Below, in pieces: positions 2,026-41,082 of a DNA stretch of 44,902 nucleotides. The first letter of the stretch is position 1. Each line of letters starts with the position of its first letter. The position numbers and the translations under genes are program-made. The DNA comes from Haloferax elongans ATCC BAA-1513 (GTDB lineage: Archaea; Halobacteriota; Halobacteria; Halobacteriales; Haloferacaceae): the NCBI RefSeq assembly GCF_000336755.1, contig NZ_AOLK01000005.1:1-44902 (forward strand). Reading direction: 5' to 3'. The notes under the pieces are model-generated. The model worked only from the letters and a program-made list of their open reading frames with translations. It was not told the DNA's origin and did no database searches.

Positions 2026-2059
2026 TATGACCCATCGGTGAAAGGTTCGCGACAGGTTG

Positions 2060-14812: not shown

Positions 14813-15057
14813 CACGTACCTCCGTCACGAACCGAACAGCGAGACAATTCGAGGTTGAGTCCGAATAGCCCGATTTCTTCAAATCCAAGTTCTCGCCACC
14901 GACCCTCTTCAAGTATGTACTCAGTTCGTTGTGTTGTCGATGACTCGTCGGTTGTATACGTCACTCGGTGCTGATCACCGGTCTGCCCGGTGTATTCGAT
15001 ACTGAGCGTTTTGATCGAAGGTAGAACTTCCGGCTTCGATAGTTGGTCTTCTTCCAT
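14812..15057 (-). CDS. Small uncharacterised protein between addA-like and Hint genes
   Basis: An 81-residue protein from ATG 15057, 95 bp after the AddA-like gene and overlapping the start of the Hint protein by one base. It looks like a compact beta protein: KTLSIEYTGQ, HRVTYTTDES, RTEYILEEGRWRELGFEE. No signal or membrane segment is seen. The pattern suggests a single small beta-sheet domain, possibly an accessory of the intein-derived protein, but I recognise no family. Confidence 0.5.
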   Translation of the reverse strand: MEEDQLSKPEVLPSIKTLSIEYTGQTGDQHRVTYTTDESSTTQRTEYILEEGRWRELGFEEIGLFGLNLELSRCSVRDGGT

Positions 15058-18100: not shown

Positions 18101-18587
18101 CGAGACACCTCGAATGAACATCGGTCAGTAAAGAATCGTCCCCTACGGCAGGCGACTCACTGAAGCCAACTTCGGGAGCGATTGTCCCGAACACAGTCCG
18201 GAGAATGCTATCGATTGTTCCGAGCGTATCTGTTTCTCGGAGTCGCCGCGTGAGCACCTCTGCATCTGATTCGGAAAGCTCAACACGACATTCGGGGTCC
18301 GCTGCAAAGGACTTCAGCGCCTTGGATATACCGGGGATGATTGCAGCGGCGTCGTCACGAGCAAACGACGCAATACAGAGGGTCTGTTCAGGGGCCCGAA
18401 CGCCGTCGTCCCACGACCGAGCAAGTGCTTCGGCAGCAACTTGCTCTGTAACCGTCGACTTCCCTGCACCCGGGTTGCAATCGAGGATAAACAGTCCCGA
18501 CTCGTTTGCAAAAAACGAATCGCGAAGGCGTGCTTGTGCACCCTTCAACGACGGGACATCACGATCCTTCAGTTGCTGTTTAGACAC
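15153..18587 (-). CDS. AddA/RecB-like UvrD-family helicase with C-terminal PD-(D/E)XK nuclease
   Basis: A 1144-residue protein from GTG 18587, which overlaps the end of the AddB-like gene by 8 bp; the open frame continues to 18803, but those codons lie inside the AddB-like gene. Walker A is PGAGKST at residues 39-45, Walker B is VIVDEAQDVS near 340, followed by VVGDTKQCIYTWRNA. Motif V/VI appear as TIHQMKGRESDVVVL and LLYVALTRARDHLV near 815. The last 100 residues carry the RecB-type nuclease pattern: EIQSHADFV, then WHVDDLKVS, then YSVQAETYGW. AddA works with AddB in double-strand-end resection. Having this on an accessory replicon suggests plasmid repair, recombination or defence against linear DNA. 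Confidence 0.85.
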   Translation of the reverse strand: MSKQQLKDRDVPSLKGAQARLRDSFFANESGLFILDCNPGAGKSTVTEQVAAEALARSWDDGVRAPEQTLCIASFARDDAAAIIPGISKALKSFAADPECRVELSESDAEVLTRRLRETDTLGTIDSILRTVFGTIAPEVGFSESPAVGDDSLLTDVHSRCLERVRSDDSVAETYASLSEAYPCGRYKLDLDGLLTAAFRACRERRLSIEEFQQSLVETIDDAYPDGPPSEFADIITDIRRFVDTDSALETAKRYSPDDRVSVVKADNTLFESWRDVVEKLCSLLGVYRDAYDKTGRELGVVSHLDAAHWVANFFDRDEKSVFSERLRARYTESLSTVIVDEAQDVSVVQHDALSHLIDEDTRVLVVGDTKQCIYTWRNAHPQLFEQAAREGDYFGIEWETHVVETAARTYRSSTAIAGAINTIFEPVFQDSTRGGSRTNAHEYPRLVAARESGPKTGVHVAAFEPQSPPGTRQWVSPPTGVGEADALAQCVAARLADGTFGSDSVTVLFPRRTYMGLYERAFASVGLSVSNSSEWLFDYPLIDVVKAVCQWLVDPMDSERVRELVLKPPLGEHGLIEAFMRLEGTWSMEAAFENGRHSEPTTSLLQGLCELEQQWQRLQAMPGTAVVETVLSALSLWADPYGFSDDSARRVAALDALCETVAQWESATEYPLSRLAAALDHYCDHPKRGSSLPGGQVESHDVQFKTIHQMKGRESDVVVLADISGDMSRFGPYSDVLVARGAHLGLAPPANTDVKDLEAFCGLDFALYDASSGSDERDAGLRWATERWADGALCGPSSLARAAADYRAEQWRLLYVALTRARDHLVIPLPTNRKSPEPRDRWVDTLRETLSFDDSRRATYDVSSPSGESVSVAVHRGERRISTDTGPDTSTSNELFVATAQERTLSTWNPRFVNPSTLYPLAIDASEHIVDYLLDRALQTARDGVSEQIPLTFESLGPEVVGDVTHGVLTEAVRRSVPTSTLQTCSGPLVEILETTIRKEAVGVNSDERQQLRSYVAGVLCPQFAESELWQRLQEAPEVYVEESLDTVSRVDGVDVEIQSHADFVSKATDGTWHVDDLKVSLQPPTEETSARYSVQAETYGWILSQQVSGVVESGVTRIGIEPAGSCSEVNPQMVLEHLRTLR

Positions 18588-20616
18588 CTGTAGAACCCTC
18601 CACAATGTGGCGAATCGACGGCGGGAGCAGACACTCCTGGCTGAGGAGGTTTTGGGTTTCTTCGTGACCAATCTGAATCGGGTCAAGCGCCGAAAGATAC
18701 GGCGAACGCTCGTACCTCGCACCCTCGAGGTCGGTCTCGAACCGAGTACATACGAGGAGTTCTGTTGCTGTCGTGACCGCATCGTCGAAGTGGTCGCGTT
18801 CACGCTCGCTCATCCACGATTCTTGAATTCCCAACGTCTGTGCGTCGGGTGTGTCACCGGCGACGACCACATCGCGAAGCGGCGCCGGGAAGACACCATC
18901 GGTCGGTTGTGGCCATTCACCGTCGACAAGCCCCATCGCGATCACGTATGGAGCCTTCCGAAGCCACGTATCAGTCGCATCGAGGACGTCGATAGCAGAC
19001 GCATTGGCGTGTTCGCGGCGACCCGGTCGGACAGTCGCAATCGCATCGGCGAGTTCGACGAGCGATCCCCACGACGCCGATGTGTGCTCACGAGCGACCC
19101 ATTCGCGATACTTGGTTGCGAGTTCGTCGACGAGCGTTTCAGTGCGTGTGAGCGCTCGTGCCGTCCGCGCGATCTCCGAGAATGCTTTTGAATCATGTAC
19201 AGGGGCATCAGTGAGAACTGTTTCACGGTGTGAATCAAGGAGTGGGAGCAGCACATCTCGGACTTCATCAGCAGACGGCGATTCAGGACACTGACGCGCC
19301 CATTCGACCAATTGTGTGAGTTGTGGGAAGGATGAATCACCAAGCGTTTCGGTCCATGCAGTAAGCGATTGTGGTGGTTCGTCCGCAAACTCTCGCCGTG
19401 CTCCAGTCACTGCATCGTACGAGATGGGCGAAGTCTCAGCATCTTTCGGCGACGTCCACCCGAACAAGAGAGGTTCACACAAAGTCTGTGCATCAACACT
19501 CTCGGCATCAAGGAGTCGGACAGTCGAGATGAGAAGTTTGTACGGGAGCGTCTGTGTTAACGGCAACTGTGTCCACACGGACAACTCGTGACCGTAGATG
19601 TCCGCTGCGTGAGAAAGTGGCCGTTCATACGTGTCTGCGTCGCGAGCGACGACAATGATGTCGCTCGGAGAAGTGCCCTCATCAAGTAGCCCTGCGACAA
19701 GCGCCATTGCAATGCGAGTTTCTTCACGTCGCGTCGAGGCCGTGAGTTCGGCAACGGGTACTGTTGGGGGAGAAGTGGTGGTTTGCCCGTGCTGTTCGAT
19801 GCGAACGGGGAGGTCCAGCGGATCAAGCCGCGATTCGAGTCGGCGAGTGAGTAGCGGACCAGTCCCCGAGCGGAGATACAGATGGATGTCTACGGGGGTA
19901 GTCGCCGCAATAGTGGCGACGAAGTCCAAAAGCGGCGACTCGATCATACTCATCCCGGCAAGGTGAACTCGTTCGATTGTCGGGAATACGTCGGTCCAGA
20001 GGCTTGCACCGATGTCGGAGAGTGCACGCGTGGCCTCTCTCACAAGAGCACTTTCGGAGAGTGCGCGGTCGGTGTGTGATTCGAGGTGGTTGGAGAGTGC
20101 TTGGAGACCCGAAACGAGATCGTCTACGTCCTTGTTCGCCGGGAACGGGAGTCGAGAGGCAAGGCGTGAGAGTGCATCATCGCGTGACTCGGCGCCGCCG
20201 GTCATCGTCTGAAGTTCTTTGCGTGCCGCCTCGATTGCCTCGGCGTGATTCGTCAAGTTGGACCCGAAGACAACCCTCAGTGAGCCAAAGCCACTCAGAT
20301 TTGTTCGCAAGAGGTCTTCGGATAGTCGAAGCCGATCGACCCTGTCGAGTGCTTCAGTTTCGTAGCCAGCGGCAGCCGACAGTTGCCGCGCCACATCGAC
20401 CGGTTGTGTGAGAAACAAACTGCTACGGGGCTGGTTGCGTTTCGCCAGACGATGTTTCAAGTTTCGACGATGGAGTTGCCCAGTCGTCAACACGAGGTCC
20501 GAAGGGGACGAAGAACGGTGTGCGTAGGATAACAAACGGCTTTCATCGCCGATGTGGACGTGAATAGCCGCTTCTGAAGCAGGCGGGTGGTCGGAACGTG
20601 AGAGTTGGTCGACCAT
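18580..20616 (-). CDS. AddB-like subunit of a helicase-nuclease
   Basis: A 678-residue protein from ATG 20616, followed with an 8-bp overlap by the AddA-like gene. The region YVIAMGLVDGEWPQPTDGVF near residue 570 corresponds to the conserved v-G-l-x-dG-x-P segment of AddB/RexB-type proteins, and AELTASTRREETRIAMALVA plus IIVVARDAD near residue 305 match the helicase-like fold of AddB. Unlike bacterial AddB (about 1150 residues) it ends shortly after the helicase-like part, with no C-terminal nuclease or iron-sulfur Cys cluster. It is therefore a short archaeal version; only the AddA-like partner appears to carry a nuclease. Confidence 0.7.
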   Translation of the reverse strand: MVDQLSRSDHPPASEAAIHVHIGDESRLLSYAHRSSSPSDLVLTTGQLHRRNLKHRLAKRNQPRSSLFLTQPVDVARQLSAAAGYETEALDRVDRLRLSEDLLRTNLSGFGSLRVVFGSNLTNHAEAIEAARKELQTMTGGAESRDDALSRLASRLPFPANKDVDDLVSGLQALSNHLESHTDRALSESALVREATRALSDIGASLWTDVFPTIERVHLAGMSMIESPLLDFVATIAATTPVDIHLYLRSGTGPLLTRRLESRLDPLDLPVRIEQHGQTTTSPPTVPVAELTASTRREETRIAMALVAGLLDEGTSPSDIIVVARDADTYERPLSHAADIYGHELSVWTQLPLTQTLPYKLLISTVRLLDAESVDAQTLCEPLLFGWTSPKDAETSPISYDAVTGARREFADEPPQSLTAWTETLGDSSFPQLTQLVEWARQCPESPSADEVRDVLLPLLDSHRETVLTDAPVHDSKAFSEIARTARALTRTETLVDELATKYREWVAREHTSASWGSLVELADAIATVRPGRREHANASAIDVLDATDTWLRKAPYVIAMGLVDGEWPQPTDGVFPAPLRDVVVAGDTPDAQTLGIQESWMSERERDHFDDAVTTATELLVCTRFETDLEGARYERSPYLSALDPIQIGHEETQNLLSQECLLPPSIRHIVEGSTGV

Positions 20617-23040: not shown

Positions 23041-23193
23041 TTATTCGGCTTCTTCGTCCAACTCTTCGAGATCTGCTGTAATGGCTTCGTCCATCAACGC
23101 ACGCATTTTGTCGAAGTGTTCGGCAATTCGGCGCCTCATTAATTCGTATTCCTCCTCGGTCACTGGATGGTGAGTGGGGTCTTTGTCTGACAT
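23041..23193 (-). CDS. Small acidic protein, one copy of a ~50-residue module
   Basis: A 50-residue protein from ATG 23193: it begins MSDKDPTHHPVTEEEYELM and ends in DLEELDEEAE. It aligns over its whole length with each half of the protein encoded at 23236-23553 (pattern S-D-P-T-x-x-P-V-T-x-E-E-x-E-x-M...F-D-K-x-R-A-x-M-D-A-A-I-x-A-D-L-E-E). The module is probably two amphipathic helices. Spacing to the upstream gene is 42 bp. Conservation of the same pattern in three copies supports translation. The function is unknown. Confidence 0.65.
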   Translation of the reverse strand: MSDKDPTHHPVTEEEYELMRRRIAEHFDKMRALMDEAITADLEELDEEAE

Positions 23194-23235
23194 TATTCGT
23201 ACTTTTGTTTGAGTAGTTACGTTGGTCTACTACCC

Positions 23236-23553
23236 TTACTCAAGGTCTTTTGATTCGTCTTCCATCGCATCAAGATCGGCTTGAACAGCGGCGTCCATTT
23301 TCGCCCGTGCTTCGTCGAAGAATACCGCAATTTTCTCGTCCATCTGTTCAAATTCTTCTTCAGTGACCGGCCGAAACGTGGGGTCTGACTTTTTGTCTTT
23401 TAGCATCTCCGGACATTCCATCTCTTCGAGATCAGCTTGGATGGCGGCGTCCATCGCCGCTCGAACCTTGTCGAAGAATTCGGCGAGCTTCTCGTCCATC
23501 TGTTCGAACTCTTCGTCGGTCACCGGGTGGAAGGTGGGGTCAGATTGCGTCAT
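23236..23553 (-). CDS. Acidic protein made of two tandem ~50-residue modules
   Basis: A 105-residue protein from ATG 23553. Residues 1-50 (SDPTFHPVTDEEFEQMDEKL, then FFDKVRAAMDAAIQADLEEM) and residues 55-103 (SDPTFRPVTEEEFEQMDEKI, then FFDEARAKMDAAVQADLDAM) are near copies. A third copy stands alone in the next gene. The repeats have diverged in their third codon positions but kept residues, which suggests selection. The protein is strongly acidic and predicted helical; it may self-associate or mimic DNA. No known family is recognised. Confidence 0.7.
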   Translation of the reverse strand: MTQSDPTFHPVTDEEFEQMDEKLAEFFDKVRAAMDAAIQADLEEMECPEMLKDKKSDPTFRPVTEEEFEQMDEKIAVFFDEARAKMDAAVQADLDAMEDESKDLE

Positions 23554-23559
23554 CGTTCG

Positions 23560-24480
23560 TATCTCTGGATGTATGCTTCGTTGTGGGTCAGCAAATGTTC
23601 TTCGCGGAATTCAATGCCCTATTAGCTTCGAGGGGCGGTGAAGTCCTCAACGAAGGTTTTCTCGCTGGTGCAGTAGACATCGTGATTGAGTCTTTCGTCG
23701 GCGAAGATGGGCGGCAAGGGAGTCACCGAGTCACTCGCAGTGACACCTCGAACAGCGGCGACGACTCACCATAACGAATCTGATACTTCGACTAGCACAC
23801 TTCCATCTCCAACGAAGCCTCCCCTATGGGGACACCGAGGGCAACACTCCCACTCCGACCACCACTGACCACACACTCGAGACGACGACAGAGGACTTCC
23901 CCACCGGGGACACACACACCACCATTGCCAGTATTACCAGTACCCACACCGACCACGTTGGGACCGGCCCGCCAGGGCCGCCGACGACTGGCTTCGTTCG
24001 CCGGGCGACGACTCCCGACTTCCCTCCCTACGATGGCTGTCCAGACCTCAACTGCCGGCGTCGTCGACGCCGCCGGCCCCGTCGGAACTATCACCTTTCT
24101 GAGAGTACGATTGCCGACTGATGTCCCACTTCTTCGATGGTCTCCCGACCGGGGTTCCACGGTGCTGCTTGCCTCGGCTTCCCACCCGCCGGTCGGCCTC
24201 GACGATCGCTCCACACCAGGCATCGACGACCACTGACTTCCCACTCTATTCGACCTTCTTTCTGAGGGGCCGGCTGACCCGTGTGGCCTGACCTCCCACG
24301 TTACGACGACCGCCGACTTCCCCTCCGAACATCGTTCCATCTGGAGTCCACTCTGCGACGACTGGCCGAACCCTCACCCTCCCGAACGAGTGTTCAAATC
24401 TTCTGATACATCGTGGGGCCGAAGGCCACCTCTCGGTGCTCACAATCTGTCGGCCTTCACGGCCCGAGTGAAATGCGATT
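23560..24480. other. GC-rich region without convincing genes, with a 19-bp dispersed motif
   Basis: Long frames exist on both strands (for example 23826-24236 forward and 23792-24340 reverse), but all are low-complexity and lack starts or domains. The forward strand is C-rich. The motif CGACGACNNNNGACTTCCC occurs four times: 23883-23901, 24006-24024, 24224-24242 and 24304-24322. Its copies lie in three different reading frames, so it is a DNA- or RNA-level element rather than a protein repeat. Partial copies (CGACGACT) lie at about 23758, 23970 and 24355. Confidence 0.55.
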
Positions 24481-24519
24481 TAGTCCTCGCGCAGGCTTGA
24501 TAGGGTTCTTACTAAGACG

Positions 24520-24776
24520 CGAGGGGGGTAAATCGGGGGTGCAAGGGGGGCCGCACAAGTTGCGGAATAATGTATGCAACGATAAATCGTGTTGGTACGG
24601 GTTAATTGGGCTATTGAAGTCTGTACTAAGGCTCTATCATTTGTGCAGGGGGTGTCGTGTTGAGGTGTGTGCGGGGGGCCTGTGCACCCCCTCAACTAGC
24701 TACCGTATGCTTATTTTCAAGAAATGAGGCAGATTGCACCCCCCGCACAGGACCCCCGCACAGGACCCCCGCACAG
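24520..24776. repeat. G-tract array and three tandem ACCCCCGCACAGG repeats
   Basis: At 24520-24552 three runs of five to six G lie within about 33 bp. TGTGCAGGGGGTG (about 24642) and GTGCGGGGGGCC (24669) follow, then the opposite orientation GCACCCCC and three tandem units of ACCCCCGCACAGG at 24738-24776. The same core (GTGCGGGGGT) thus appears in both orientations around a short AT-richer segment (24690-24735). This could be a protein-binding array, a G-quadruplex-forming site, an origin or a transfer origin. Confidence 0.55.
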
Positions 24777-25436
24777 CTCTAGAACGGTTATCAATTTTCT
24801 TGAATGAGTCCAAATACCTCTACCCACTTCCCCGATATACACTGGTGGTTCGTTTGGAGTGGTCGGAGGTTCACTGAGCAAATATGATTAAGATGTAGAG
24901 GAGTTTTTCGAGAGAGTCGAGTTTATCTCTATTACCTTGTGTTGGTGGGGTCGTAAAATGGACGCGGAAGAAAAGCACACCCATCCCTGAATGCAGACCT
25001 CGAAAAATTTTCTGTCGATATTCCCCACGCCAAGACTCTGGGGGTTGACTGATCACTCCAATCCGATGCGTGACTCGGAGAACACAATTAGAATAATTCT
25101 GATATATGTTCTAAGTGTGGGGGAGTCGCTGACTCAGCCGATAATTGTGGTCACATTCCACTCTTCCAACTCGGTCAGTTCTGGTGCAAAATGTTCCCCT
25201 CTATCTTGGGTCACTCGGGTCTGGTCTGAACTGAACCCCCACGATTCTTCACCAGCATCTTGAGCGGTGCTCTGAGTTCAGTCTAAAAATTTTGGTGTGT
25301 ACTAGCCGGTTACAGTTCGTGGAAAGAAGGCTGAATCAGGATGGGGTGTTTTGTAGCAGATTCCAGAGACAGGTAGTGATGAAAACCAAGACGAAATTAA
25401 TACTCAGATAATTGGTAGTTCTGAACTACACCCTTC
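24777..25436. other. Stretch without supported genes
   Basis: No frame here has a domain or convincing start, and no repeat was seen. It is the region downstream of the giant gene and probably contains its transcription end. Confidence 0.5.
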
Positions 25437-28400
25437 TCACTCGTCAGTGGTCTCTAACAGCTTATACAATTGCCAACCGCTCTCTGTGAGGGTGGCACCG
25501 TCCAGAATATTCTTTGCATATTTCTCTCCAATTTGACGGCGGCTCTTTTCGCAACCAACTGCATCCACGAGTTCACCAATCTTACCGATCCGCTTTGGCT
25601 CGACACCGTTGGCCTCACAGAACGCTTGGTATGCTTCGTGGGCGACTTTCGTCTTCACGTAGAGGAAGTCCACGGGGCTATCCTCTGGAATCTCTTTCTC
25701 ATCAGTAATGTGATACTCGGCGAATCGCTCCATCGAGTTCTCCTGAGTGAGTCCGTCGACGACGAAATCAGCCTCGGTCACGATGCGGCTGTACCCAGAG
25801 TCAACCCCGTACGTCTTGGGGAACTGTTCGACAGTTTCGTTCCACAGTTCGACCGGCAATTCGTCGCGCGTGTAGGTACTCCCGTTGCGCGTCTCACGAG
25901 TGACCGTCTCGACCTCGTCGGCGCTCGCGATACCCATGTCTTTGGCGGCGTGGATGAACGCTCGTCGGGGCACTCTATCATCGTCGGAGATGAAGTTGTG
26001 TTTGTCCTTGACGCGCACCCACGTCTGGAGGATTTCCTCGTCCGTGAACGGCCCTTCAATATTGTTGTCTCCGCGCACTTTCGTCAGGTGGGCGAAGTAG
26101 GTCAGCGCGTTGAACGTCGCCTTTCGTTTGTGGTCGTAGGCGACCTCGTTCGAGAGCATCACGAAGTAGTTCTCGGAGTCACCGAAGTGCTTGTGCGGGT
26201 GGGGGCCGCGGTAGCCTTTCGTCTTCCCAGTAATCTCTGCGAGCGAGTATCCGAACAGGTCACTGGGACCGCCGATGGACGAGCCGAATCTGTCGTCGAT
26301 GTCGTCACCGATGGCGTCGTCATCAAGCCACTCGTCTTGACGGTTCGCCACGTCGCGCTGTCGCATCCCTGCGACCGTCTGTGCGTAGTCGGGGTGGGAA
26401 CGCGGGTCGAACATCTTGAGGCCTTCAAAGAGCGGCGTGACGCGAGAGAGAGCGCCGTCGTCGTCGCCCACCCAGTAGGTCTCGGCAGCACGCGACTGGC
26501 TGGCCTCACCATACAGGCCTTCGACGGCGGCGACGTGACTCCCCAAGAGTGGGAAGCGACCCAGACCGAGTTCGATGGAAAGCGTCAGTGGGTCGTTTGG
26601 CCCAATCCCGGCGTCCTTCGCGGCGAAGTCGCCTGCTGAGAGTGCACCGGTCTTCTTCGAGCGCCACTCCTTGTAGAGCGGGAACGACGTGTGGCCCTTG
26701 TCACGGAGGATGAACGCCCAGTGGAGCAAGTCGTCGAACATGAAGTACATCTCTTCGGAGAGGTCATCCGAATCCTCCCGGGCGAGGTCTTCCTCCGAGG
26801 TGGGCGAGATGGGGTCGATAGTCACCTCACCGTCTGTCTCGTGCCACTCGTCGTCGCCTGCGGATGGTGGGCCGGCGGTGAACCAGTCGGGGTACGCATA
26901 ATCGACGTAGGCCTCCTGCCACGCAATCGACTCGTTGATCCACGAGAGAACCGGGAGTTCGTCGGGGTGATTCGTGATTCCGTCAAGGCGGTCTTCGTAC
27001 CACTGCTCTTCATCGTCGCTTGCTGCACGCCACGTATCAACCAGCGTCGTCAAGCCGGGCGACGGCGGGGCCACCTCGTAAAAGCGGTCAGTGAGGTAAT
27101 CGTCGAGGTCCACTTTGCGACCGGCAATCCGTGGGAGTTCGACCATGATACAGTCCACTCCTCGTTCGGTGAGGTACGCCGCCGTCGCGAGCGCTCCCTG
27201 TTCGCCGGGACCGCCGTAGCCAATTTCGAGGGCCTCGCCAATGGGACCGCGGCGAGACGCTCCTTCGTCTCGCTGGTCGCGGATGTACTCCCGGAGGTCC
27301 TCGCCGGACAACTCGTTACGAGCGGTCATGCGCTCGGTGAGGTCGTCCACGTCGATATCGGCCTCGTCCAAGAGGTTGAACGACGCCGCCTCGTTGTCCT
27401 GAATCAGGAGCGTCGTGGATACGTCGTGTTCGGCAAGGATGTCCAACAGCCGGAACTTGACGGCGTCTTTGAACTGCGTCGTCACCGGCGAGATAGCGGG
27501 CAGTTCTAACTCGTGAGCGGCGATTGCGTCGGCAATCCCCTCGGTGATGATGACGGGGCGGCCTTCTCGAATCGTATCCACGCCGTAAATCGGCTCCTCG
27601 CAGTAGTTCGCGTCGGTGAGCTTCTGCTTGAGGTACTTCGCATCGCTGCGGTAGTCGTTGGGGTGTGGGCGGCCCTTCTGGGTTCGAGACATACAGTAGC
27701 GAACCTGCCCGTCTTCGTCGTGGTACGGGAACAGATAGCGGCCACGCCACACACTGCGTACTTTCTCTCGGTCGGGGACTTCCGAGAGGTCGTACTCAGG
27801 GAGGTCTTCCATCTCGACGGTGGTGTCGTGCTCGTCGCTCAGGTAGCGTGCGATGCGTGCGTAGTCGGGTCGGAACAGGCCGGTCGCGATGAGTTGCGTC
27901 GGCGTGTAGCCTTCGTCAAGCAGGTGGTCAACACCGGCTCGCCACTTGCCGGGAATCCATCCAAGTTTCTTACTGTTGGCAGTGTGGTCTGTCCACCCGC
28001 GACCAATCGTATCGCGGTCGCCAAGGTGTCGATGGGCGCTGTGCGATTCGAGGTCTGCCGCCACGAGGTCGGTTGCCTCGTCCAAATTACCGGACAGTCC
28101 ACGGAAGAGGTCCGCCCGTTGCGGCCAGTCGGGGCCACAGTAATACTCGCGGGCCGTCTCGGGGAGTCGGAGCAACGGCGTCTGGTACGTGTTCGTCTCG
28201 CACCATCGGCAGTCGTCACTCTCGTCGGTCCAGCCCCGGTGGTCTCTGCATCCGACACGCTCGACCACGGTGATGTCTTCGGGCACGGCGCCGTGTTCGT
28301 CTTCGCCGTCGGTCGCGACGTCGGCGCACTCGGCACACGTCAGAACTTCGGCACAGTGGTCGCATCCGGGTTCGACCGCGTAGTGGTAGGTGTAATCCTC

Positions 28401-31400
28401 GTCGTTGTCGTTGACGCAGGGCCGCCATTCGATGTGGGCGATATGTGTCTCGTCGCCGCATTCATCACATGGGCCGACCATCACGCAGTCGGTACATCCC
28501 TCGACGTAGGTGGGATGTGCCTCACACGCTTCGGTGTACTCGTCTCGAAGGTGGTCTAGGAGGTCGTTGAACGCCTTGTTCTTCGGGATTGGTGCGTCAA
28601 TCTGGTCGTGGTAGTAGTCCACCGCTGCGGTGAACGTGTCTTCCCACCCGTCTGGTTCGCCTTCCGTGGGTACGAAGTCGAGTTCGTGAGCGAGCGTGTT
28701 CGTCAGGTCGGCGTAGTCGTCCGAGTCGTCGGTCGGCTCGGTCGGGCTGAGTGCTCCCGTGTCCGGTTCGGAGTCGACTTCCGGTTCTTCGTCTTCTTCT
28801 TCACTGTTGGCCTCCGACTCGTCGCCGTCTGCGTCCACTGCTGGCTCCGTCTCGGCCTCGGACTCTTCGGTGGATGATTCTGCGTCGATGACGATGGGCT
28901 TGCTCTCGGCGTCGCCTGCGCCCTCGTCGGCCACGCTCTCGGTGGGGTCGTCCAGTTCGATGGGCTTCGATTCGGTCTCGTCTTGGGTTGGGTCGTCCAA
29001 GTCGAGCGTCGAACTGGTGTCTGGTTCGTCCAGCACGAGGTCTTCGTCTTCGTCGTCCTGTGCCGACGGGACGCCTTCTGCGAACGCCGCAGCGACGTCT
29101 TCGTCGGTTGGGGCATCTTCGGGCTCCGGCGGCGGGCGTTCGGGGACGATTGGCCCGTGGTCTTCTTCATCGTCTGCCTCGTCGCCTTGACCACTTGCAG
29201 GGGTGGTCTCTGCTGGCTCGTCTGTACTCGTTTCTTCTTCGTAGTAGGTCTCGTAGAGTTCCCAGTCGATATCGTCCTCGCCGAGTGGGTCGGCCAGTCG
29301 GTAGCCAATGGTTTCTTCGACGAGAATCCCTGCGGCAATCGACCGCTCCATCTCCTCTTTGATTTCGTCCACCTCGTCGTCATCCATTCCGAAGGTGTTC
29401 TTGACGATGGGGACGATACCGAGGTCCTGTATCTCTTGGTCGTAGTCAGCACCAGCGAAGTCCCAGACGGCTTTCCACGACTCGGGAACATCACGGGGTG
29501 GCAGACGGTAGCCGTCTTGGCCACCTTCCATCTCTGCTTCTTCGAGTGTCTCGCGTTGAAGCGCGATATGGACGGCTGCTTCGACACGGGGTTTCGTCGC
29601 GTCCGTGTCGGTAAAGGGGCCGTGTCCGAATGCCATGCTCTCGAAGAACTGTTGGGCGACAGTATCCCCGGGGCTCGCTCCCATCCCAGTCCACACTTCG
29701 ACCCAGTGGTCGCGCTCGACGAAATCTTCGGGCCGACCGTGGAGGACGAGTTTCGCGTGCGTCCCGCGTGGGGGCGCAAGGAAGTAGCCTTCGTCAGTGT
29801 GAATCAGGTGGCCGGTTTTCACGGCGGCTTCGATGGCTTCTTCGTGGAGGTCCATCATCGCCACGCCGTTTTCGATGGCCTTCGTCAACACTTGGTAATT
29901 CAGCGGGGTCTCGTGGGCGGTGTTCGCCGCGTTCCAGACCTTCTCCCAGAAACGCCGACTCATGGGATTCTTCCCGCCGAAGTCTGCATCCGGGTAGTAC
30001 AGGTAGTCGATTTTCGGGAGCGGTTCGTCGCCGTCTCTGAAGGCTTCGTAGCTCATGTAGTAGTTCGCAAGGATGTCGTTGAGGCGAACCTGTGCTGGCG
30101 TTGCTGCTTCGTCGTCCAACTCAGAGGCCGCCTGTGCGGTGTGGTCGTAGTCGTACAGTAGCTCGGTTGCGAAGGTGTCGCGGAACTCACCGTCCCAGTG
30201 GTCTTTGGGGATGAGCGGCGTCAGGCTCTCGCCGTCATACACCTGCGGCATCGTATCGTCGGCGGCCTCGACCAGCGGGTTGGGCTTGTCGGGGCTCGCC
30301 GGGATGATGACGATTTCCCAGTCGTTTTCGTCGGGGACTTCGCCACCGAATTCCATCTCGGGGTAGAACGGCTGGTAGACACGCTGCCAATCCTGTTCGA
30401 GTTCTTCGAGGGTGTCGTATCGCTGTTCGACCGAGTTGGCGTACACCACCCATTCGTCTTCGTACTTGTCGTACCGGCCCCACGACTCGAAGGCGTTCGC
30501 AGACGCATTCGAGAGTTCTTCGGGGACGATTCGCCCACGTTGCTTCCCGTCTGCACCCTGCTGGTCGAACAGAACGAGGTCGCCGTCTTGGTCAATCCAC
30601 GTCGCTTGTTTCCCCTTGCGGATGAGTGCGAACTTCTGTTCGTCTTCATCATCCGACAGCGGGAGGTAGTCGGGTTTGTTGTAGAGGGTTCGTTCGACGC
30701 ACGTCTCGCCCTCGTCGTCGACGTATTCGTTGTAGTCGCGGATGTACGCGGGGTCTGCGAGAATCCCGTAGAGTCGTTGGGCGACCGCGTCACTGGCGGT
30801 GTTCTTCCGAATCCGACCGTCGGGGACGACGTACACGCATTTCTTGTCTTGTCGGTAGGCTCGAACGAGGTTCTTGAGCGTCCGGGTTGGTTTCTTCCCA
30901 CTCGTCTCGGCTTCGATGGTGATGTCACGCGCACCCGAGAAGCCGTACGGGAGTGGGTATTCTTGTTCGAGTTCGTTGATGGAGTCTCGAATCCGCCGTG
31001 GCGAGGAGTGGTCGATTTCACCGGGCAGTTCACCCTTCGCGTCTGGTCGCTCCTGTTTGACCAACTGCGGGACGATACTCACCGAGTAGTCCATCCGGGC
31101 GAACCAATCGAACGAGTGGGCCAGCAACTCACGGTGGAGTTGCGATGGCGAGGTCATTCCTTGGTCGGCGTCAAGGATGAACTGATGGCCGGCCTCGGTC
31201 AGACTGATCGCGCCCTCCGTGGATTCGAGGGTGTGCATCTTCGGGCCGTCGGCCACGATTTCGGTGTAGGCTTCGCGAGCGGCGGTGAGGTCTTGGCCGT
31301 CTTCGACGTCGTCAACGTCGTCCGGGCGCAACTCGTGCAGCGAAACGTACGCCGCCTCGTCCTCGTCGCGTTCGATTTCTTCTTCGGGGTCGTAGATGTC

Positions 31401-34400
31401 TTCGACGTTCTCGGTCGGGACGTAACGCCGAACGTGCTCGCGTGAGAGTTCCAGCCCGCCGGGGTAGTCGTCGAACGACCGTCCGGTGCGTTCTTCGAAG
31501 CGCTCGGCGACCGCTCGAATGGCGACGGCTTCGGTATCGCGTTCAATTTGGACTTCTCGAATCGCCTGCAACAGTTCGCGTTGGGTTCCTTCGTCGCTCC
31601 CAATATCGTGGATGAGCATAGCCGTCTCTTCCAACTTGGTTTCGAGTGGTGGGACGCCGTGGCGGTCTAACGACTGCTGGATGTACTCTTTTCGCTCCTC
31701 GCGACTGCGAAGCGGTGGGTAGTCGGCGAACGTCGCCAGTGGAAGGGTATCCGAAAGGATACTCTCGCCGTTTTCCTCCATCGCAATCCGCGTGAAAATG
31801 TTGTACTGGGGGATGTCTTGGACCATCCGTTCGGTGACTTCTTCCTCGAAGCGTCGTTGGATGATGTCGGCGTCGTCAGGCTCACCAATCCCGAAACTCG
31901 CCATCGTCCGTGAGTTCCCGAAGATTTCCTTGCGGGTCTGTTCCTTGATTTGGGAGGGATTCTGCATGGCGATGGTGATACCCATCTTGCCGGAGCGGGC
32001 TTTCGAGAGCATCTTCCCAATCCCCATTTCGTCGGATACGACGTCGTCGAACTCGTCGATGAGCGTAAAGAACGGATTGCGGGCGTGTTCTTCCTCGTCG
32101 CGTTCTTGAATCGTCGCCCAGATACGCCGGAGGACGGCGGTGGTCACGACCTGCTTGATGTCGTCGGAGCTGACGTTGACCTTCACGAGGATGATTTTGT
32201 TGTCTTCGACTGCATCCGAGAGGTTGACCGTCCCGTCGCGGTGGGCGACGATTCCGCGGGCGATTGGGTCTTCGACCCAGTGCTGGATACGACGAACGAC
32301 AGCGTCCACCTCCTCGTAGTCCATCTTCGCGATTTGCTTGGTGTAGCCCTGAATATTCTTCATCGCGTCGATGGTCTTCGCACGCTCGTCTTCGGTGTCC
32401 ACGTCTTCGAGGTCGTAGTCAGTGGACTTCTCCATCCCTTCGCGGTGGACGAGTTCTGCGAACGCTTCGCGAGAGGGTTTGGACTGGAGGACGTAGTACA
32501 TATCCAACAGCGTGAACGGCTTGTCCGACCGGATCATCGCACGGGCGATGTTGGTGGTGATCCCTTCCATCTTTGGCCCCCAGTAGTCACCGGCTTTCAG
32601 AATCGAGGTCAGGTCGTCAACGATAGACGACACCTCACGGTCGTACGCACGCTCGGTCGGTGAGGAGGCCGTCTCGAAGAAGTTGAGGCCAACCACGAGG
32701 TCGAAATCCTTTGAGCCGGGTTCGATGTAGATGAGGTCGTCCATCCGCTCTTCGGGGAGTTCGCGCATCAGGTCGTCGATGGTGTCACCCTTCGGGTCGA
32801 TGAAACAGAAGCCGTGGCCCTTCCGAGCAATCTGGTTCAGGATGTTCTTCTCGGAGGTGGATTTCCCCATGCCAGTCATGCCGAAAATGACCATGTGACG
32901 GAACGCCTGTTCGACGTCGACGCCGATTTCGTGAAAGCCCACGCGGTTGTCCTTGAGCCACCCTAACCAGATGGGCGATTCGGGATGGTCGGTGTGAACG
33001 TCGATGAGTTCTTGCCGGACGTCCGAGCCCATATACACGTTCCCGTCGTCGGCGTGAACTTTCACCTCGTAGGCACGGTCTTCGTTGGTGTGGGGGTCAC
33101 GACACCACTCACGTTCGACGCCGACCGGCGTGAAGTCGAACCCCTCTGCTTCGCGCACGGGTGCGGGGAGGTTGCGTCCCGAGTCTTCCTTCTGGTAGAC
33201 GGTCTTGCCGTCGTCAGTCTCGACTTCGTAGCCGTGTTCTTCGCGGTAGGCGACTTCGCGTTCGAGTTTCGAGATGAGAACTTCGGCTTCGTTCTCGTTG
33301 AACTTCTCGCGGATGTCTTCGCGAGTGAGTTCGCCCGACTGGAACAGGTCTGCAAACTTCCGGAACCCATCGCGTTTCTCGCCTTCCCACTGAGCGCTCG
33401 GTGGCTGTGGTTTGGACTCGTCTTTACTGGAAGCGACGGTCTTGGTGCGAGCGGTCGGGGCGTCGTCGTCTGCGATATCGCGGGTGTCTGTGCCGTCGAT
33501 GGTGGTGCCGTCGATAGCGGGCGTCTCGTCGGTGTCCGTATCGCCGGTCTCGGAGGCTTCGACCGTCTCGCCCGGTGCTGCGACGGCGTCTTCGTTTCCA
33601 GCAGGGAGTTCGGGGACTGTGTTCGTGAGGTTGTCGTCGGCAGCCGCCCGTTCGTGGCCGTACTGGTCGTACGGGAGTGGGTCGATGGACCTGACCTTCC
33701 GGGGGGCCGCCGCCGGTGCTTGCGAGGTGAGCGCTCGGCGCGTCCACTCGACGTTCGGCGTGTCGATATCGCCGTTCGGGATGTGTGCAACTGCGGCGAG
33801 TTCGGGGATGGTAAGTGCGACCGAATTCTGTTTCTTGCGTCGTTCCCACTCGCGGCCTGCTGTCATCTCCAGTTTTGGAATGAGGTCCTTCTTCTGGTAG
33901 GGGACTTGGCCGAATCGTTGGCCGAACTCTTGATTCTGATACGTCGACCGGAAGGCGTTGCCGATGCTGTTTGCTTCCTTGACGACGAATTCCTCGGTAT
34001 TCCCGAAGACGAAGTACCGAATGTTGACGTAGAACCCCGATTCGTCAGCTTGGTCTTCGATTGCTTTGGCGATTCGCAGGTGTTTCTCTGAGGGGTCCTT
34101 GATGTAGGGGTTGATGTGGCTTTCGACGACCTCTCCTTCTTTGAGATCGGACGCGACACGGTCGGCCCCCCGGACGTAGAGCCCCCCTTCGCGCCAGTTG
34201 TCGCCGGCTGGCGTGAACACGACTTGGGCGATGGCCGTCGAATCGTTCTGTCCGATGAGTGCCGAGGTGAGCGCTCGAAGCGCCGCCTTGTCCGGTGGGA
34301 AACCACCGGGTGCGTCAGGACCGAGGCCTTTGATGGGTCGATAGCGATTCTCTTCGAGTTTGAGTTCACCACCGGCGACGTACTGGCCTTCTCGAACACC

Positions 34401-34781
34401 CGGGAAGGGTTTGGAGAGTCGTTTCAGACCGATTCGTGGGTAGTTCCCGGTGATGACTTTCCGGAGTTCGCCAAACCAGTAGTCGTCGGGCATCCCCCAG
34501 ACGAATTTCAGTTTTTTTCCATCGTACCAGATTTCGTAGGAGAACGGTGGTGGGTTCTCTTCTTTGTCGAGGAGTCGACGTAGTCGGGTTCGCTTGACGG
34601 TGACATCTTGGAACGCCGAAATCACTTCAGGGCCGTATCGCTGGCCGGGGCCGCCCTTGTAGGGGCGTGCCTTGATGAAGTTATAGTCAAGGTCGTTCAG
34701 TCGCCCAGCGAGTTGCTGGAGGAGTTCGTCGGTGACGGGTTGTGCTTTGTACGAATCGTCAGAGAGGAATGGGAAGTTCAT
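25437..34781 (-). CDS. Giant fusion protein: VirD4/HerA-type motor ATPase, nuclease-like segment, zinc cluster and TOPRIM primase-like region
   Basis: A 3114-residue protein from ATG 34781, with no frameshift. Residues 1-370 are an unassigned N-terminal region. After a Thr/Asp/Pro-rich linker, the motor domain has Walker A GMTGMGKST (634-642), FIDPKGD soon after, and Walker B LIDEF (907-911) followed by AMQNPSQIKEQ, the order in TraD/VirD4/HerA-type DNA pumps. Residues about 1235-1320 (ERPDAKGELPG, then DITIEAETSGKKPTRTLKNL) resemble a PD-(D/E)XK fold. An Asp/Glu-rich linker spans about 1848-2030 and a Cys-rich zinc cluster about 2090-2215 (PCDECGDE, CDHCAE, CAEC, CRWCE). A TOPRIM-like region has VIITEGIADAIAAHE (Glu 2414) and LLIQDNE (2458-2464). 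The C-terminal 80 residues look like a winged helix. It lies 12 bp after a membrane-protein gene. Confidence 0.8.
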   Translation of the reverse strand: MNFPFLSDDSYKAQPVTDELLQQLAGRLNDLDYNFIKARPYKGGPGQRYGPEVISAFQDVTVKRTRLRRLLDKEENPPPFSYEIWYDGKKLKFVWGMPDDYWFGELRKVITGNYPRIGLKRLSKPFPGVREGQYVAGGELKLEENRYRPIKGLGPDAPGGFPPDKAALRALTSALIGQNDSTAIAQVVFTPAGDNWREGGLYVRGADRVASDLKEGEVVESHINPYIKDPSEKHLRIAKAIEDQADESGFYVNIRYFVFGNTEEFVVKEANSIGNAFRSTYQNQEFGQRFGQVPYQKKDLIPKLEMTAGREWERRKKQNSVALTIPELAAVAHIPNGDIDTPNVEWTRRALTSQAPAAAPRKVRSIDPLPYDQYGHERAAADDNLTNTVPELPAGNEDAVAAPGETVEASETGDTDTDETPAIDGTTIDGTDTRDIADDDAPTARTKTVASSKDESKPQPPSAQWEGEKRDGFRKFADLFQSGELTREDIREKFNENEAEVLISKLEREVAYREEHGYEVETDDGKTVYQKEDSGRNLPAPVREAEGFDFTPVGVEREWCRDPHTNEDRAYEVKVHADDGNVYMGSDVRQELIDVHTDHPESPIWLGWLKDNRVGFHEIGVDVEQAFRHMVIFGMTGMGKSTSEKNILNQIARKGHGFCFIDPKGDTIDDLMRELPEERMDDLIYIEPGSKDFDLVVGLNFFETASSPTERAYDREVSSIVDDLTSILKAGDYWGPKMEGITTNIARAMIRSDKPFTLLDMYYVLQSKPSREAFAELVHREGMEKSTDYDLEDVDTEDERAKTIDAMKNIQGYTKQIAKMDYEEVDAVVRRIQHWVEDPIARGIVAHRDGTVNLSDAVEDNKIILVKVNVSSDDIKQVVTTAVLRRIWATIQERDEEEHARNPFFTLIDEFDDVVSDEMGIGKMLSKARSGKMGITIAMQNPSQIKEQTRKEIFGNSRTMASFGIGEPDDADIIQRRFEEEVTERMVQDIPQYNIFTRIAMEENGESILSDTLPLATFADYPPLRSREERKEYIQQSLDRHGVPPLETKLEETAMLIHDIGSDEGTQRELLQAIREVQIERDTEAVAIRAVAERFEERTGRSFDDYPGGLELSREHVRRYVPTENVEDIYDPEEEIERDEDEAAYVSLHELRPDDVDDVEDGQDLTAAREAYTEIVADGPKMHTLESTEGAISLTEAGHQFILDADQGMTSPSQLHRELLAHSFDWFARMDYSVSIVPQLVKQERPDAKGELPGEIDHSSPRRIRDSINELEQEYPLPYGFSGARDITIEAETSGKKPTRTLKNLVRAYRQDKKCVYVVPDGRIRKNTASDAVAQRLYGILADPAYIRDYNEYVDDEGETCVERTLYNKPDYLPLSDDEDEQKFALIRKGKQATWIDQDGDLVLFDQQGADGKQRGRIVPEELSNASANAFESWGRYDKYEDEWVVYANSVEQRYDTLEELEQDWQRVYQPFYPEMEFGGEVPDENDWEIVIIPASPDKPNPLVEAADDTMPQVYDGESLTPLIPKDHWDGEFRDTFATELLYDYDHTAQAASELDDEAATPAQVRLNDILANYYMSYEAFRDGDEPLPKIDYLYYPDADFGGKNPMSRRFWEKVWNAANTAHETPLNYQVLTKAIENGVAMMDLHEEAIEAAVKTGHLIHTDEGYFLAPPRGTHAKLVLHGRPEDFVERDHWVEVWTGMGASPGDTVAQQFFESMAFGHGPFTDTDATKPRVEAAVHIALQRETLEEAEMEGGQDGYRLPPRDVPESWKAVWDFAGADYDQEIQDLGIVPIVKNTFGMDDDEVDEIKEEMERSIAAGILVEETIGYRLADPLGEDDIDWELYETYYEEETSTDEPAETTPASGQGDEADDEEDHGPIVPERPPPEPEDAPTDEDVAAAFAEGVPSAQDDEDEDLVLDEPDTSSTLDLDDPTQDETESKPIELDDPTESVADEGAGDAESKPIVIDAESSTEESEAETEPAVDADGDESEANSEEEDEEPEVDSEPDTGALSPTEPTDDSDDYADLTNTLAHELDFVPTEGEPDGWEDTFTAAVDYYHDQIDAPIPKNKAFNDLLDHLRDEYTEACEAHPTYVEGCTDCVMVGPCDECGDETHIAHIEWRPCVNDNDEDYTYHYAVEPGCDHCAEVLTCAECADVATDGEDEHGAVPEDITVVERVGCRDHRGWTDESDDCRWCETNTYQTPLLRLPETAREYYCGPDWPQRADLFRGLSGNLDEATDLVAADLESHSAHRHLGDRDTIGRGWTDHTANSKKLGWIPGKWRAGVDHLLDEGYTPTQLIATGLFRPDYARIARYLSDEHDTTVEMEDLPEYDLSEVPDREKVRSVWRGRYLFPYHDEDGQVRYCMSRTQKGRPHPNDYRSDAKYLKQKLTDANYCEEPIYGVDTIREGRPVIITEGIADAIAAHELELPAISPVTTQFKDAVKFRLLDILAEHDVSTTLLIQDNEAASFNLLDEADIDVDDLTERMTARNELSGEDLREYIRDQRDEGASRRGPIGEALEIGYGGPGEQGALATAAYLTERGVDCIMVELPRIAGRKVDLDDYLTDRFYEVAPPSPGLTTLVDTWRAASDDEEQWYEDRLDGITNHPDELPVLSWINESIAWQEAYVDYAYPDWFTAGPPSAGDDEWHETDGEVTIDPISPTSEEDLAREDSDDLSEEMYFMFDDLLHWAFILRDKGHTSFPLYKEWRSKKTGALSAGDFAAKDAGIGPNDPLTLSIELGLGRFPLLGSHVAAVEGLYGEASQSRAAETYWVGDDDGALSRVTPLFEGLKMFDPRSHPDYAQTVAGMRQRDVANRQDEWLDDDAIGDDIDDRFGSSIGGPSDLFGYSLAEITGKTKGYRGPHPHKHFGDSENYFVMLSNEVAYDHKRKATFNALTYFAHLTKVRGDNNIEGPFTDEEILQTWVRVKDKHNFISDDDRVPRRAFIHAAKDMGIASADEVETVTRETRNGSTYTRDELPVELWNETVEQFPKTYGVDSGYSRIVTEADFVVDGLTQENSMERFAEYHITDEKEIPEDSPVDFLYVKTKVAHEAYQAFCEANGVEPKRIGKIGELVDAVGCEKSRRQIGEKYAKNILDGATLTESGWQLYKLLETTDE

Positions 34782-39041: not shown

Positions 39042-40388
39042 TTATTTCCCTTCAAAGAAATCCGTTATCTGAGCATTGACAACAGATTTGATAAGGTCTC
39101 CTTCTTGTTCGACCTCTTCGAGTCGGAAATCGGCCTGAAGTGTCTCGGCAACCACTTCTGGGTCGTCGACGAAAGTGTACTCCTTGTGAACCCCGCTCCC
39201 ATAACCTCGTCCTCGTTTCGCCGATGTGACGAAGTTGTAGGTTTCAGCTTCACTCATATACCGTAGATAGGAGTCGCGTGACTTTTCGTCAGCGTCCAGC
39301 AGGTCAGTGAGATACTGATAGACGCGGTACGCAACCGTACTTGGAACGGCGTTCAGGTTGCGCTGGGAATACACAGGGACGATAGCAGTTGCGTAGAGGG
39401 AGAGCTTCTTTTGCGTTGACAGCCCCTGCATCTGGGTTAACGTGCGGTCCCTTTCGGCTTCTGTCTGGGCGTCGCGAACGTGGTCTTCACGAATCGTATC
39501 TTCACCCGCGCGATCCGCAATCTCACCGGCCTTTCTGAATAGATCGATTGCTTTTCGAGCGTCCCCGTGGTCCTGGGCAGCGAATGCTGCACTGAGCGGA
39601 ATAATACCGTCCTCGAGGACATCGTCTTGAAATGCGTCACGACGTCTTTCAAGAATCGACTGGAGTTGATTCGCGTCGTAGTCAGGGAAGACGACGTCTT
39701 GCGGGTTAAATGAACTCTCGGCTCGCCCGTCCAGGTCCTCCATAAACCGAGGATCGTTCGTGAGTGCAGCGACGGACACGTGCCCCTCAATCCGACCGAG
39801 TTGAGAAGCGCGCGACAGCTGGTAGAGCAGTTTCGAATAGGCCGGTTCGTCGTTCGGATCTCGTTGTCGACCAACTAAGAGGTCGACCTCGTCGAGAATG
39901 ACGATAACCGAGTCGAAATTGTTGCTCAAAATCTCGTAGAACCGATTGAGCTTCTGGTCTGTCGAGATGCCACTCTGTGGGATGTTGACGTCAACACCAG
40001 CTTCGTCAGCTGCGTTCTTGGCCAAGCGATACACAGCACGGTCATGAGATTTGATTGTCTGGCAGTTGATTTTGATGACGCCAAAGCGGTCACCTTGTGA
40101 GTTCGCGAGTTCGAGTACTTGCTGGCAGACTGCGTTGATGATGAGCGACTTTCCGGTGCCGGATGGACCATAGAGCAGCATATTTGGAGGCCGATTGCCC
40201 TGTAGCGCCGGTCGAAGGTAGGTAATTATATCGTCTAGCTGGTCATCGCGACCGACGATTCTGTCCTCGTCGATGACAGCATCAGGATCAAGAAGTCCTT
40301 TGTCTCGAAAGACAGAATTCTGAACCCCCTGTTGAAGACGCCCTTTGATAGATTCTGAGAGAGATTGTTGATCGTCACCGTCAGCCAT
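39042..40388 (-). CDS. orc1: Orc1/Cdc6 replication initiator (copy 2)
   Basis: A 448-residue AAA+ initiator from ATG 40388 (MADGDDQQSLSES); a longer frame to 40439 overlaps an origin repeat and is not used. Walker A is YGPSGTGKS, Walker B VIVILDEVDL, and the lid motif GDARKAIDLFRKAG is present. The C-terminal winged helix starts near KKLSLYATAIVP and ends around EYTFVDDPEV. Length is normal for the family. It is flanked on both sides by a repeat family distinct from that of the first orc1, so the two initiators probably serve different origins, possibly relics of plasmid fusion. Confidence 0.95.
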   Translation of the reverse strand: MADGDDQQSLSESIKGRLQQGVQNSVFRDKGLLDPDAVIDEDRIVGRDDQLDDIITYLRPALQGNRPPNMLLYGPSGTGKSLIINAVCQQVLELANSQGDRFGVIKINCQTIKSHDRAVYRLAKNAADEAGVDVNIPQSGISTDQKLNRFYEILSNNFDSVIVILDEVDLLVGRQRDPNDEPAYSKLLYQLSRASQLGRIEGHVSVAALTNDPRFMEDLDGRAESSFNPQDVVFPDYDANQLQSILERRRDAFQDDVLEDGIIPLSAAFAAQDHGDARKAIDLFRKAGEIADRAGEDTIREDHVRDAQTEAERDRTLTQMQGLSTQKKLSLYATAIVPVYSQRNLNAVPSTVAYRVYQYLTDLLDADEKSRDSYLRYMSEAETYNFVTSAKRGRGYGSGVHKEYTFVDDPEVVAETLQADFRLEEVEQEGDLIKSVVNAQITDFFEGK

Positions 40389-40426
40389 ATTTGCGGGATT
40401 ACGTCGAAGGCATAAATAGATGTGGG

Positions 40427-41082
40427 GGACCGTGTGCAAGATTAAATTTGGTGAATTCAGACGATAGAGACGATTTTAACAGGGCCGATTTAGAAGACCG
40501 GTTGACCGTGGGCGAAATCAATTACTCAGAGACACCCCGTGTGCAAAATGAAATCAGGTATGTCGAGGAAGTAGCCCGGCTCAATCGAATTCTATCGATC
40601 CCCCCTCCGTGTGCGAAATGAAAATCTGAACGTGAGATACGGTTGGATAATGTTGGCGACTTAACCGACAAATCACACTGAAGCCCTCAAAGACGAGGCA
40701 AATGTACCCCCACACCCCGTGTGCGAGATGAATTTAGAGAGGAGGTTGGCAAGTGTGGGCGGAGAAACAACGACAGAATGGACGGTAGAAGCTGTGAGAG
40801 GACGTATACACGGAAGAACAGCACTGTGTATAGAACGGATGAATTGCGAGGGAAGCAGTTCTGTCACAAAACAAACTGTTTTATTTTAGCTGACCCTAAC
40901 CCCATTACGGAATCAGTTGACAAGGTATCTATATAAAAATTTCTCTAGACATAGACGTTCTCTAATTTCGTCTTCTCGACTTCTCTCTCGTACAAAATCG
41001 TCTGCTTTGCTCGTCTTCCATCTTTTCTCGGCAATCACCCCTCTCACCTTTTTCTAGATTTCATTTCGCACACGGGGTGTGG
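40427..41082. other. Replication origin 2: direct and inverted ORB-like repeats around an AT-rich core
   Basis: Direct copies of CACACCCCGTGTGCGAAATG or variants are at about 40427-40447, 40531-40554, 40602-40625 and 40711-40734, with a degenerate one near 40505. An inverted copy (ATTTCATTTCGCACACGGGG...) is at 41058-41082, followed by GGGGG. Between 40860 and 40990 the sequence is AT-rich (CTATATAAAAATTTCTC). This is the expected layout of an origin beside orc1 copy 2. No protein gene was seen from 40389 to 41643. Confidence 0.75.

Follow-up and report, generated by a model that had tools for sequence, protein, structure and literature searches.

A haloarchaeal plasmid protein of more than 3,000 residues joins a VirD4-type coupling motor to a DnaG-type primase

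Introduction

Does a single reading frame of Haloferax elongans ATCC BAA-1513 hold both a DNA-transfer pump and a primase, and what would such a protein do? The two are normally on separate proteins, and plasmid transfer between haloarchaea is poorly understood. The frame lies in the stretch of DNA analysed here as a whole (the window, 44,902 nucleotides), which covers positions 1-44902 of the 106,236-base contig NZ_AOLK01000005.1 (C5) in a genome of 3.95 Mb. Its product is called Q hereafter, and proteins of the same architecture are called giants.

Relaxase-primase fusions of the MOBQ type are already known (PMC12857230), and so are polyvalent primases (PMC5512222). In the survey of polyvalent proteins almost all of the large ones (>1,000 aa) were bacterial, and large multidomain transfer proteins are said to be scarce in archaea (PMC5512222). 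A text search of a library of open-access papers returned no description of a coupling protein fused to a primase. The component parts of Q are of known kinds; the new element is their joining in one chain.

Results and Discussion

The Reading Frame and Its Homologues

The frame of Q is open from ATG to stop over 3,114 codons at 25437-34781 on the minus strand. An unbroken 9.3-kb frame had been reported at these positions in a preliminary description made from the sequence alone; that frame and its coordinates held, the strand was absent there, and the plus-strand reading was ruled out by stops throughout. All the parts of Q given below are on the minus strand. The N-terminal domain of 350 residues, the repeats at residues 1601-1850, the weakly D5-like C-terminus and the downstream noncoding region were likewise absent from the preliminary description.

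By searching for homologues with the same domain order, we found ten further unsplit giants. Together with Q they make up 11 intact frames of 3,114-3,389 aa from nine genomes of haloarchaea. Those of Halobaculum magnesiiphilum (3,197 aa) and Halobaculum marinum (3,211 aa) are each located on a complete circular plasmid. The others besides Q come from Natronorubrum thiooxidans (3,314 aa), Halorubrum persicum (3,210 aa), Halorubrum distributum (3,293 aa), Hr. laminariae with two giants (3,342 and 3,343 aa), Halorubrum sp. Atlit-26R (3,310 aa), and one more genome that also has two (3,375 and 3,389 aa). The identity of their motors to that of Q goes from 56% down to about 28%. Between close pairs of giants dN/dS was 0.18-0.22, and purifying selection acts on the whole chain. 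An error of assembly or annotation that joined two genes, for which split homologues would have been a sign and in favour of which it can be said that the two halves occur separately in other genomes, has a negligible probability and is ruled out by the ten more intact single frames, including those on complete circular plasmids of two Halobaculum species.

Relatives of the primase half were present in 39 of the 392 genomes of the order and relatives of the motor in 105 of them, the latter mostly as stand-alone frames of about 1,000-1,100 aa. A viral origin was also considered and ruled out, since the viral contigs and phages searched contained no relatives.

The N-Terminal Domain and the Coupling Motor

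Residues 1-350 (33732-34781) have a stand-alone counterpart of about 400 aa in the transfer cassettes of haloarchaea, encoded by a gene that lies between those for VirB4 and VirD4. The identity to the Natrinema thermotolerans gene was 29% (E 1.6e-34), and the domain was followed in a 14-sequence alignment. The search of its profile against the PDB gave no match.

Residues 550-1100 (31482-33134) correspond to a VirD4/TrwB-type AAA+ coupling motor, as had been proposed. They were matched by Pfam DUF87 (E 7.5e-8) and NCBIfam TraD (E 1.6e-10), and the TraG-D C-terminal motif was matched as well. When the AF2 model of residues 545-1510 was compared by Foldseek, the coupling proteins TrwB (1e9r, E 1.3e-9) and DotL (6sz9, E 5.7e-9) came ahead of HerA-NurA, whose score was weaker (E 1.3e-6). 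The mean pLDDT of this model is modest, 66 (60 and 66 for the AF2 models overall), and the identity of the fold is safe only because the sequence profiles agree with the model. The Walker A motif GMTGMGKST (residues 634-642, 32856-32882) and the Walker B motif LIDEF (residues 907-911, 32049-32063) were read directly at the residues where the preliminary description had placed them. In the eight giants compared, G634, G637, G639, K640, and T642 of the former and D909 and E910 of the latter are invariant. No transmembrane segment was found in Q, where the maximum 19-residue hydropathy is 0.99, and the stand-alone VirD4-like protein g54 is likewise without a transmembrane anchor.

The Central Region

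A nuclease-like segment of the PD-(D/E)XK kind had been pointed out behind the motor. Here it was placed at residues 1190-1330 (30792-31214), with PD at 1246-1247, E1290, E1292, and K1297. The D, E, and E are invariant in 11 sequences, stand-alone VirD4 proteins among them, and the topology of the model, alpha-beta-beta-beta-alpha-beta, fits the PD-(D/E)XK fold. The comparison of its profile with Pfam and the PDB gave no family or structure match. The assignment is based on the conserved PD...ExE and the modelled topology, and we tentatively regard the segment as nuclease-like at the depth of its motif.

Between residues 1601 and 1850 (29232-29981) there are about three repeated modules of ~75 aa, detected by self-comparison against shuffles (z 10.7 for modules 1-3 and 7.2 for modules 2-3). 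The modules have diverged around the consensus W..VW ... G.L ... Y.L.P; they are possibly winged-helix DNA-binding domains. The acidic linker which had been described at residues 1848-2030 (28692-29240) is borne out by its composition, 39% D+E and 2% K+R, and its conservation is low.

Residues 2086-2215 (28137-28526) hold a cluster of 14 Cys with CxxC pairs, read directly. In Q and Halobaculum it occupies the place of a DnaG zinc-binding domain, before the core. The cluster noted earlier is then present in Q, but it is confined to the clade of Q and Halobaculum and absent in the other giants, so it is not general to them.

The Primase Core and the C-Terminus

Residues 2255-2580 (27042-28019) form a DnaG-type primase core, DNAG_N plus TOPRIM, according to profiles, Foldseek and the conservation in 24 sequences. 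Its motifs are RxRxxFP, KYLK, E2414/D2418, D2462/E2464, and D2558/D2560/D2561. The TIGR01391 dnaG profile matched Q with E 9e-5, which is below the curated cut-off, and a small-plasmid relative with E 3e-12; PHROG 47 DNA primase matched Q with E 1.2e-9. By Foldseek, the model of this region was aligned with the DnaG RNA-polymerase domain 4edg (E 6e-9). A fold search without any primase or TOPRIM fold would have spoken against the preliminary description, and a DnaG-type fold was what it returned.

The TOPRIM-like motifs are also where they had been seen: ITEGIAD holds E2414 and QDNE holds D2462 and E2464. The giants do not vary at E2414, D2418, D2558, D2560, or D2561, and in the alignment of 24 sequences the acidic catalytic positions are 90-100% conserved, D2462 at least 90%. 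It had been suggested that DNE in place of DxD may mean an altered activity. The second motif of the relatives is QDNE, QDSD, QDAE, or NDTD; considering that D-x-[E/D] is the norm among them, DNE is ordinary, the suggestion is unsupported, and an inactivated TOPRIM domain is ruled out on this ground. A single copy, the giant G299b (locus L050), has NGTD with the first Asp lost. Its genome encodes a second giant, and G299b is possibly an inactivated duplicate.

At residues 2780-3114 (25440-26444) there is a family-specific domain followed by a C-terminal D5-like winged helix. The former has the motif GxSxNYFVxxxxxAYDHKR and is common to the small-plasmid relatives, and at the C-terminus the Pfam Pox_D5 match was weak (E 0.025-0.07). 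Taken from end to end, a single chain of more than 3,000 aa joins a coupling motor to a bacterial-type (DnaG-type) primase, and the physical joining of the two that had been proposed is a conserved feature of the eleven intact giants.

Origin and Loss of the Two Halves

The primase half has relatives among the large proteins of 10-18-kb plasmids; on the 10.8-kb Halomarina and the 14-kb Halorubrum BOL3-1 plasmids, such a relative is the sole large gene. These small-plasmid proteins (L043:4076-9370, L042:3486-7226) are 1,246-1,764 aa long, are annotated as hypothetical, and consist of a DnaG-type primase and a Walker-A-bearing tail. We read this tail, which is in the same chain and gave no family match, as helicase-like from the sequence, and the proteins are likely to be unrecognised replication proteins.

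Primases without a motor were found in several places of the tree. The stand-alone primase of the H. gibbonsii plasmid pHG3 pairs with Q (100/100), that of H. rubrum pairs with the H. magnesiiphilum giant (97/97), and that of Hr. yunnanense falls among the Halorubrum giants. Similarity between pHG3 and the gene of the giant starts at about codon 2045-2049, and no remains of the motor precede it; the primase has 1,061 aa and dN/dS of 0.15 against Q. In Hr. ezzemoulense an IS630 element adjoins a truncated motor and the primase is open. Since stand-alone primases nest beside giants and Hr. ezzemoulense holds such a remnant, the loss of the motor is recurrent. The reverse case was observed in Hr. 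salinarum, where the motor was kept without the primase. From these few cases the primase would be the more persistent part. The motor tree does not establish a common fusion event for the distant G299 giants and the rest.

The Noncoding Region Downstream of the Giants

Every giant examined is followed by ~0.8 kb of AT-rich sequence, behind which a stretch of about 1-1.6 kb is conserved and has no annotated genes. In the window the AT-rich spacer after the stop codon is at 24576-25436 (minus strand; GC 0.45-0.52, against ~0.60 in the gene) and the conserved region, origin- or RNA-like, is at 23680-24575 (minus strand). This region and its counterpart in H. gibbonsii pHG3 are 82.8% identical over 895 nt with three single-base gaps, and their divergence is 0.17, to be compared with 0.37 at the synonymous sites of the adjacent gene. 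A missed gene was ruled out, since the substitutions have no codon periodicity and the open reading frame is broken by stops in pHG3.

The regions of the relatives (L047:16350-17900, L044:15168-17350, L002:23009-25758) are constrained too, and they lie directly downstream of giants. Local windows of the Halorubrum/Natronorubrum set gave much better foldings than their column-shuffled versions (z to -13), and two hairpins contain four base pairs in which both partners have changed, without any mismatch; this support is for local hairpins and not for a global folding of the whole region. The Halorubrum form was found in no genome that lacks both a giant and a remnant of one, and the form of Q only in its own genome among the 392, and in pHG3 among plasmid records. 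The two forms are likened by their position and character, not by demonstrated homology. Rfam gave no match in the window and two relatives. By analogy with pRN1, whose replication gene is followed by a stem-loop that is required and serves as the origin (PMC4234260), the region could be an origin, or else a structured RNA.

G-rich iteron-like direct repeats were seen in the AT-rich stretch after two giants (L044:15461-15917, L005:25482-25686). Between the noncoding region and the next genes of the window, three copies of a 129-nt repeat are located at 23041-23553 (minus strand), which encode short acidic helical peptides 61-77% identical.

The Probable Plasmid and Its Transfer-Like Genes

The nearest database DNA to contig C5 is a Haloferax gibbonsii plasmid. 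The contig has three Orc1/Cdc6 genes, at 39042-40439 (minus strand; Pfam Cdc6_lid E 5e-24), at 2057-3316 (plus strand), and at contig position 90524-91762 (minus strand), and two ParA genes, of which a ParA-type partition ATPase is at 42099-43010 (minus strand; Pfam AAA_31 E 7e-36). Taking into account this similarity and these genes, it is very likely that C5 is a plasmid; the ends of the contig showed no overlap. ParA adjoins the giant in several Halorubrum plasmids.

Outside the window, at 67681-79095 of C5, there is a transfer-like cassette composed of VirD4-like, partner, VirB4-like, lipoprotein-like and membrane proteins. It is paralogous to the front half of the giant, and its VirB4, partner and VirD4 are 69%, 80%, and 42% identical to those of Natrinema. 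Most giants are not beside a VirB4 gene or a T4SS cassette; for one distant giant the distance to a VirB4 gene is ~3 kb. At E <= 1e-10 no relative of VirB4 was detected in H. magnesiiphilum or H. marinum, whose genomes are complete, and AAA_10 matched nothing there except the giant itself in H. marinum. Relaxases of the family PF03432 were not found in the H. elongans genome.

Two other loci of the window have counterparts near giants. At 15153-20616 (minus strand) a UvrD-type helicase with a PD-(D/E)XK domain (1,216 aa) overlaps with a 678-aa partner, resembling an AddAB/RecBCD-like pair, and a similar pair is ~4 kb from the giant of Halorubrum sp. Atlit-26R (L070). At 13829-14815 (minus strand) a LAGLIDADG protein with intein-like ends lies amid plasmid genes; a copy 43% identical is ~10 kb downstream of the H. 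marinum giant (L005:33961-35034).

Possible Function

The reading that we prefer, with a probability of about one half, is that Q is a plasmid replication primase fused to a VirD4-type coupling motor and that it links replication with transfer. The primase half would act at or near the structured downstream region and would make RNA primers for the replication of the plasmid. The AAA+ half would form a ring and pump a plasmid strand or duplex towards the envelope or a partner cell, and one chain with both activities would couple copying with transfer; the priming of strands during transfer is possible as well. What we infer here comprises the priming and pumping activities, the substrate strand, the use of the region as an origin and the taking place of transfer. 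The dual role is favoured by the front half and the cassette, which are of transfer type, together with the back half, the ParA neighbours and the downstream region, which are of replication type. Replication is indicated at least as much as transfer, because the primase half persists alone beside a structured noncoding region. Nevertheless a replication role would not be obligatory, since the plasmid already has three Orc1/Cdc6 initiators.

If transfer came first, Q would be a conjugative coupling protein with a primase of its own that primes the single strands entering the recipient, comparable to a VirD4 joined with TraC or Sog. Consistent with this are the VirD4/TrwB fold, the occurrence of the partner domain and of VirD4 in T4SS-like cassettes, of which the plasmid itself carries a complete one, and the TOPRIM primases that T4SS elements carry across (PMC5512222). 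What makes it doubtful is that VirB4 is not beside most giants and is not detectable in two complete genomes, that H. elongans has no PF03432 relaxase, and that the primase half has been retained where the motor was lost. The lack of a detectable VirB4 in those two giant-bearing genomes and of PF03432 in H. elongans, as well as the absence of a transmembrane segment, argues against a simple T4SS coupling.

The same hosts without detectable VirB4 could be accommodated if Q worked in replication and segregation only, as a primase with a HerA/FtsK-like intracellular pump for replication, decatenation or partition and without any role in transfer. ParA beside giants, HerA matches in both sequence and fold searches, and the structured downstream region with its analogy to pRN1 would also agree with it. 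We consider it unlikely, given that conjugative coupling proteins and not HerA are the best fold matches, that the N-terminal partner domain is otherwise a gene of transfer cassettes, and that the motor has been lost repeatedly while the primase and the plasmid persist.

A part in defence or counter-defence, in which a HerA-like motor, a nuclease and TOPRIM would act on invading DNA, is very improbable and was set aside: the PADLOC matches (mad8, E 1.5e-18; RT-associated DnaG-like, E 1.7e-6) concern motor and primase domains of a generic kind, the neighbourhoods of giants showed no defence partners, and the primase is related to small-plasmid proteins.

Returning to the linked replication and transfer that we prefer, natural versions exist without the motor or without the primase, so that the two roles should be genetically separable in cultured strains, and the giant offers a testable enzyme for that link. 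That one chain replaces both a coupling protein and a transferred primase, pumps plasmid DNA from one haloarchaeal cell to another without a VirB4-based T4SS, primes the complementary strand on the DNA as it moves and has a loading site or a companion RNA in the structured region downstream seems to us unlikely. If the motor does work without VirB4, this would point to transfer by a route other than the standard type IV system.

Comparison with Known Systems

The motors of HerA-NurA and of HerA-based defence are related ring ATPases with weaker fold matches than the coupling proteins, and unlike in those systems no NurA or Sir2 partner was seen with the giant. VirD4, TraG and TrwB share with it the AAA+ core with Walker A and B and the TraG-D motif, and TrwB and DotL are the nearest solved folds; the giant differs from VirD4, TraG and TrwB in that it has no transmembrane anchor, carries in addition a partner domain, a nuclease-like segment and a primase, and is usually not beside VirB4. 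In the cassettes with the order pilin, membrane protein, VirB4, partner, and VirD4, of which the Natrinema thermotolerans plasmid NZ_CP101874 (typed MPF_T by MOB-suite) is an example, the partner and VirD4 are homologous to the first 350 residues and to the motor of the giant. The haloarchaeal cassettes, however, encode partner and motor in separate genes, neither of them joined to a primase.

Like the giant, pRN1 has a primase-bearing replication protein and a structured, origin-like element downstream of it (PMC4234260). The 5.4-kb pRN1 uses an archaeo-eukaryotic primase/polymerase with an SF3 helicase (PMC4234260), whereas the primase of the giant is DnaG-type and is followed by no recognised helicase. 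The DnaG-type TOPRIM primases, including TraC/Sog and the polyvalent ones (PMC5512222), have an RNA-polymerase domain plus TOPRIM with the same catalytic residues as the giant; in contrast to all of these, the primase of the giant is fused to a coupling motor.
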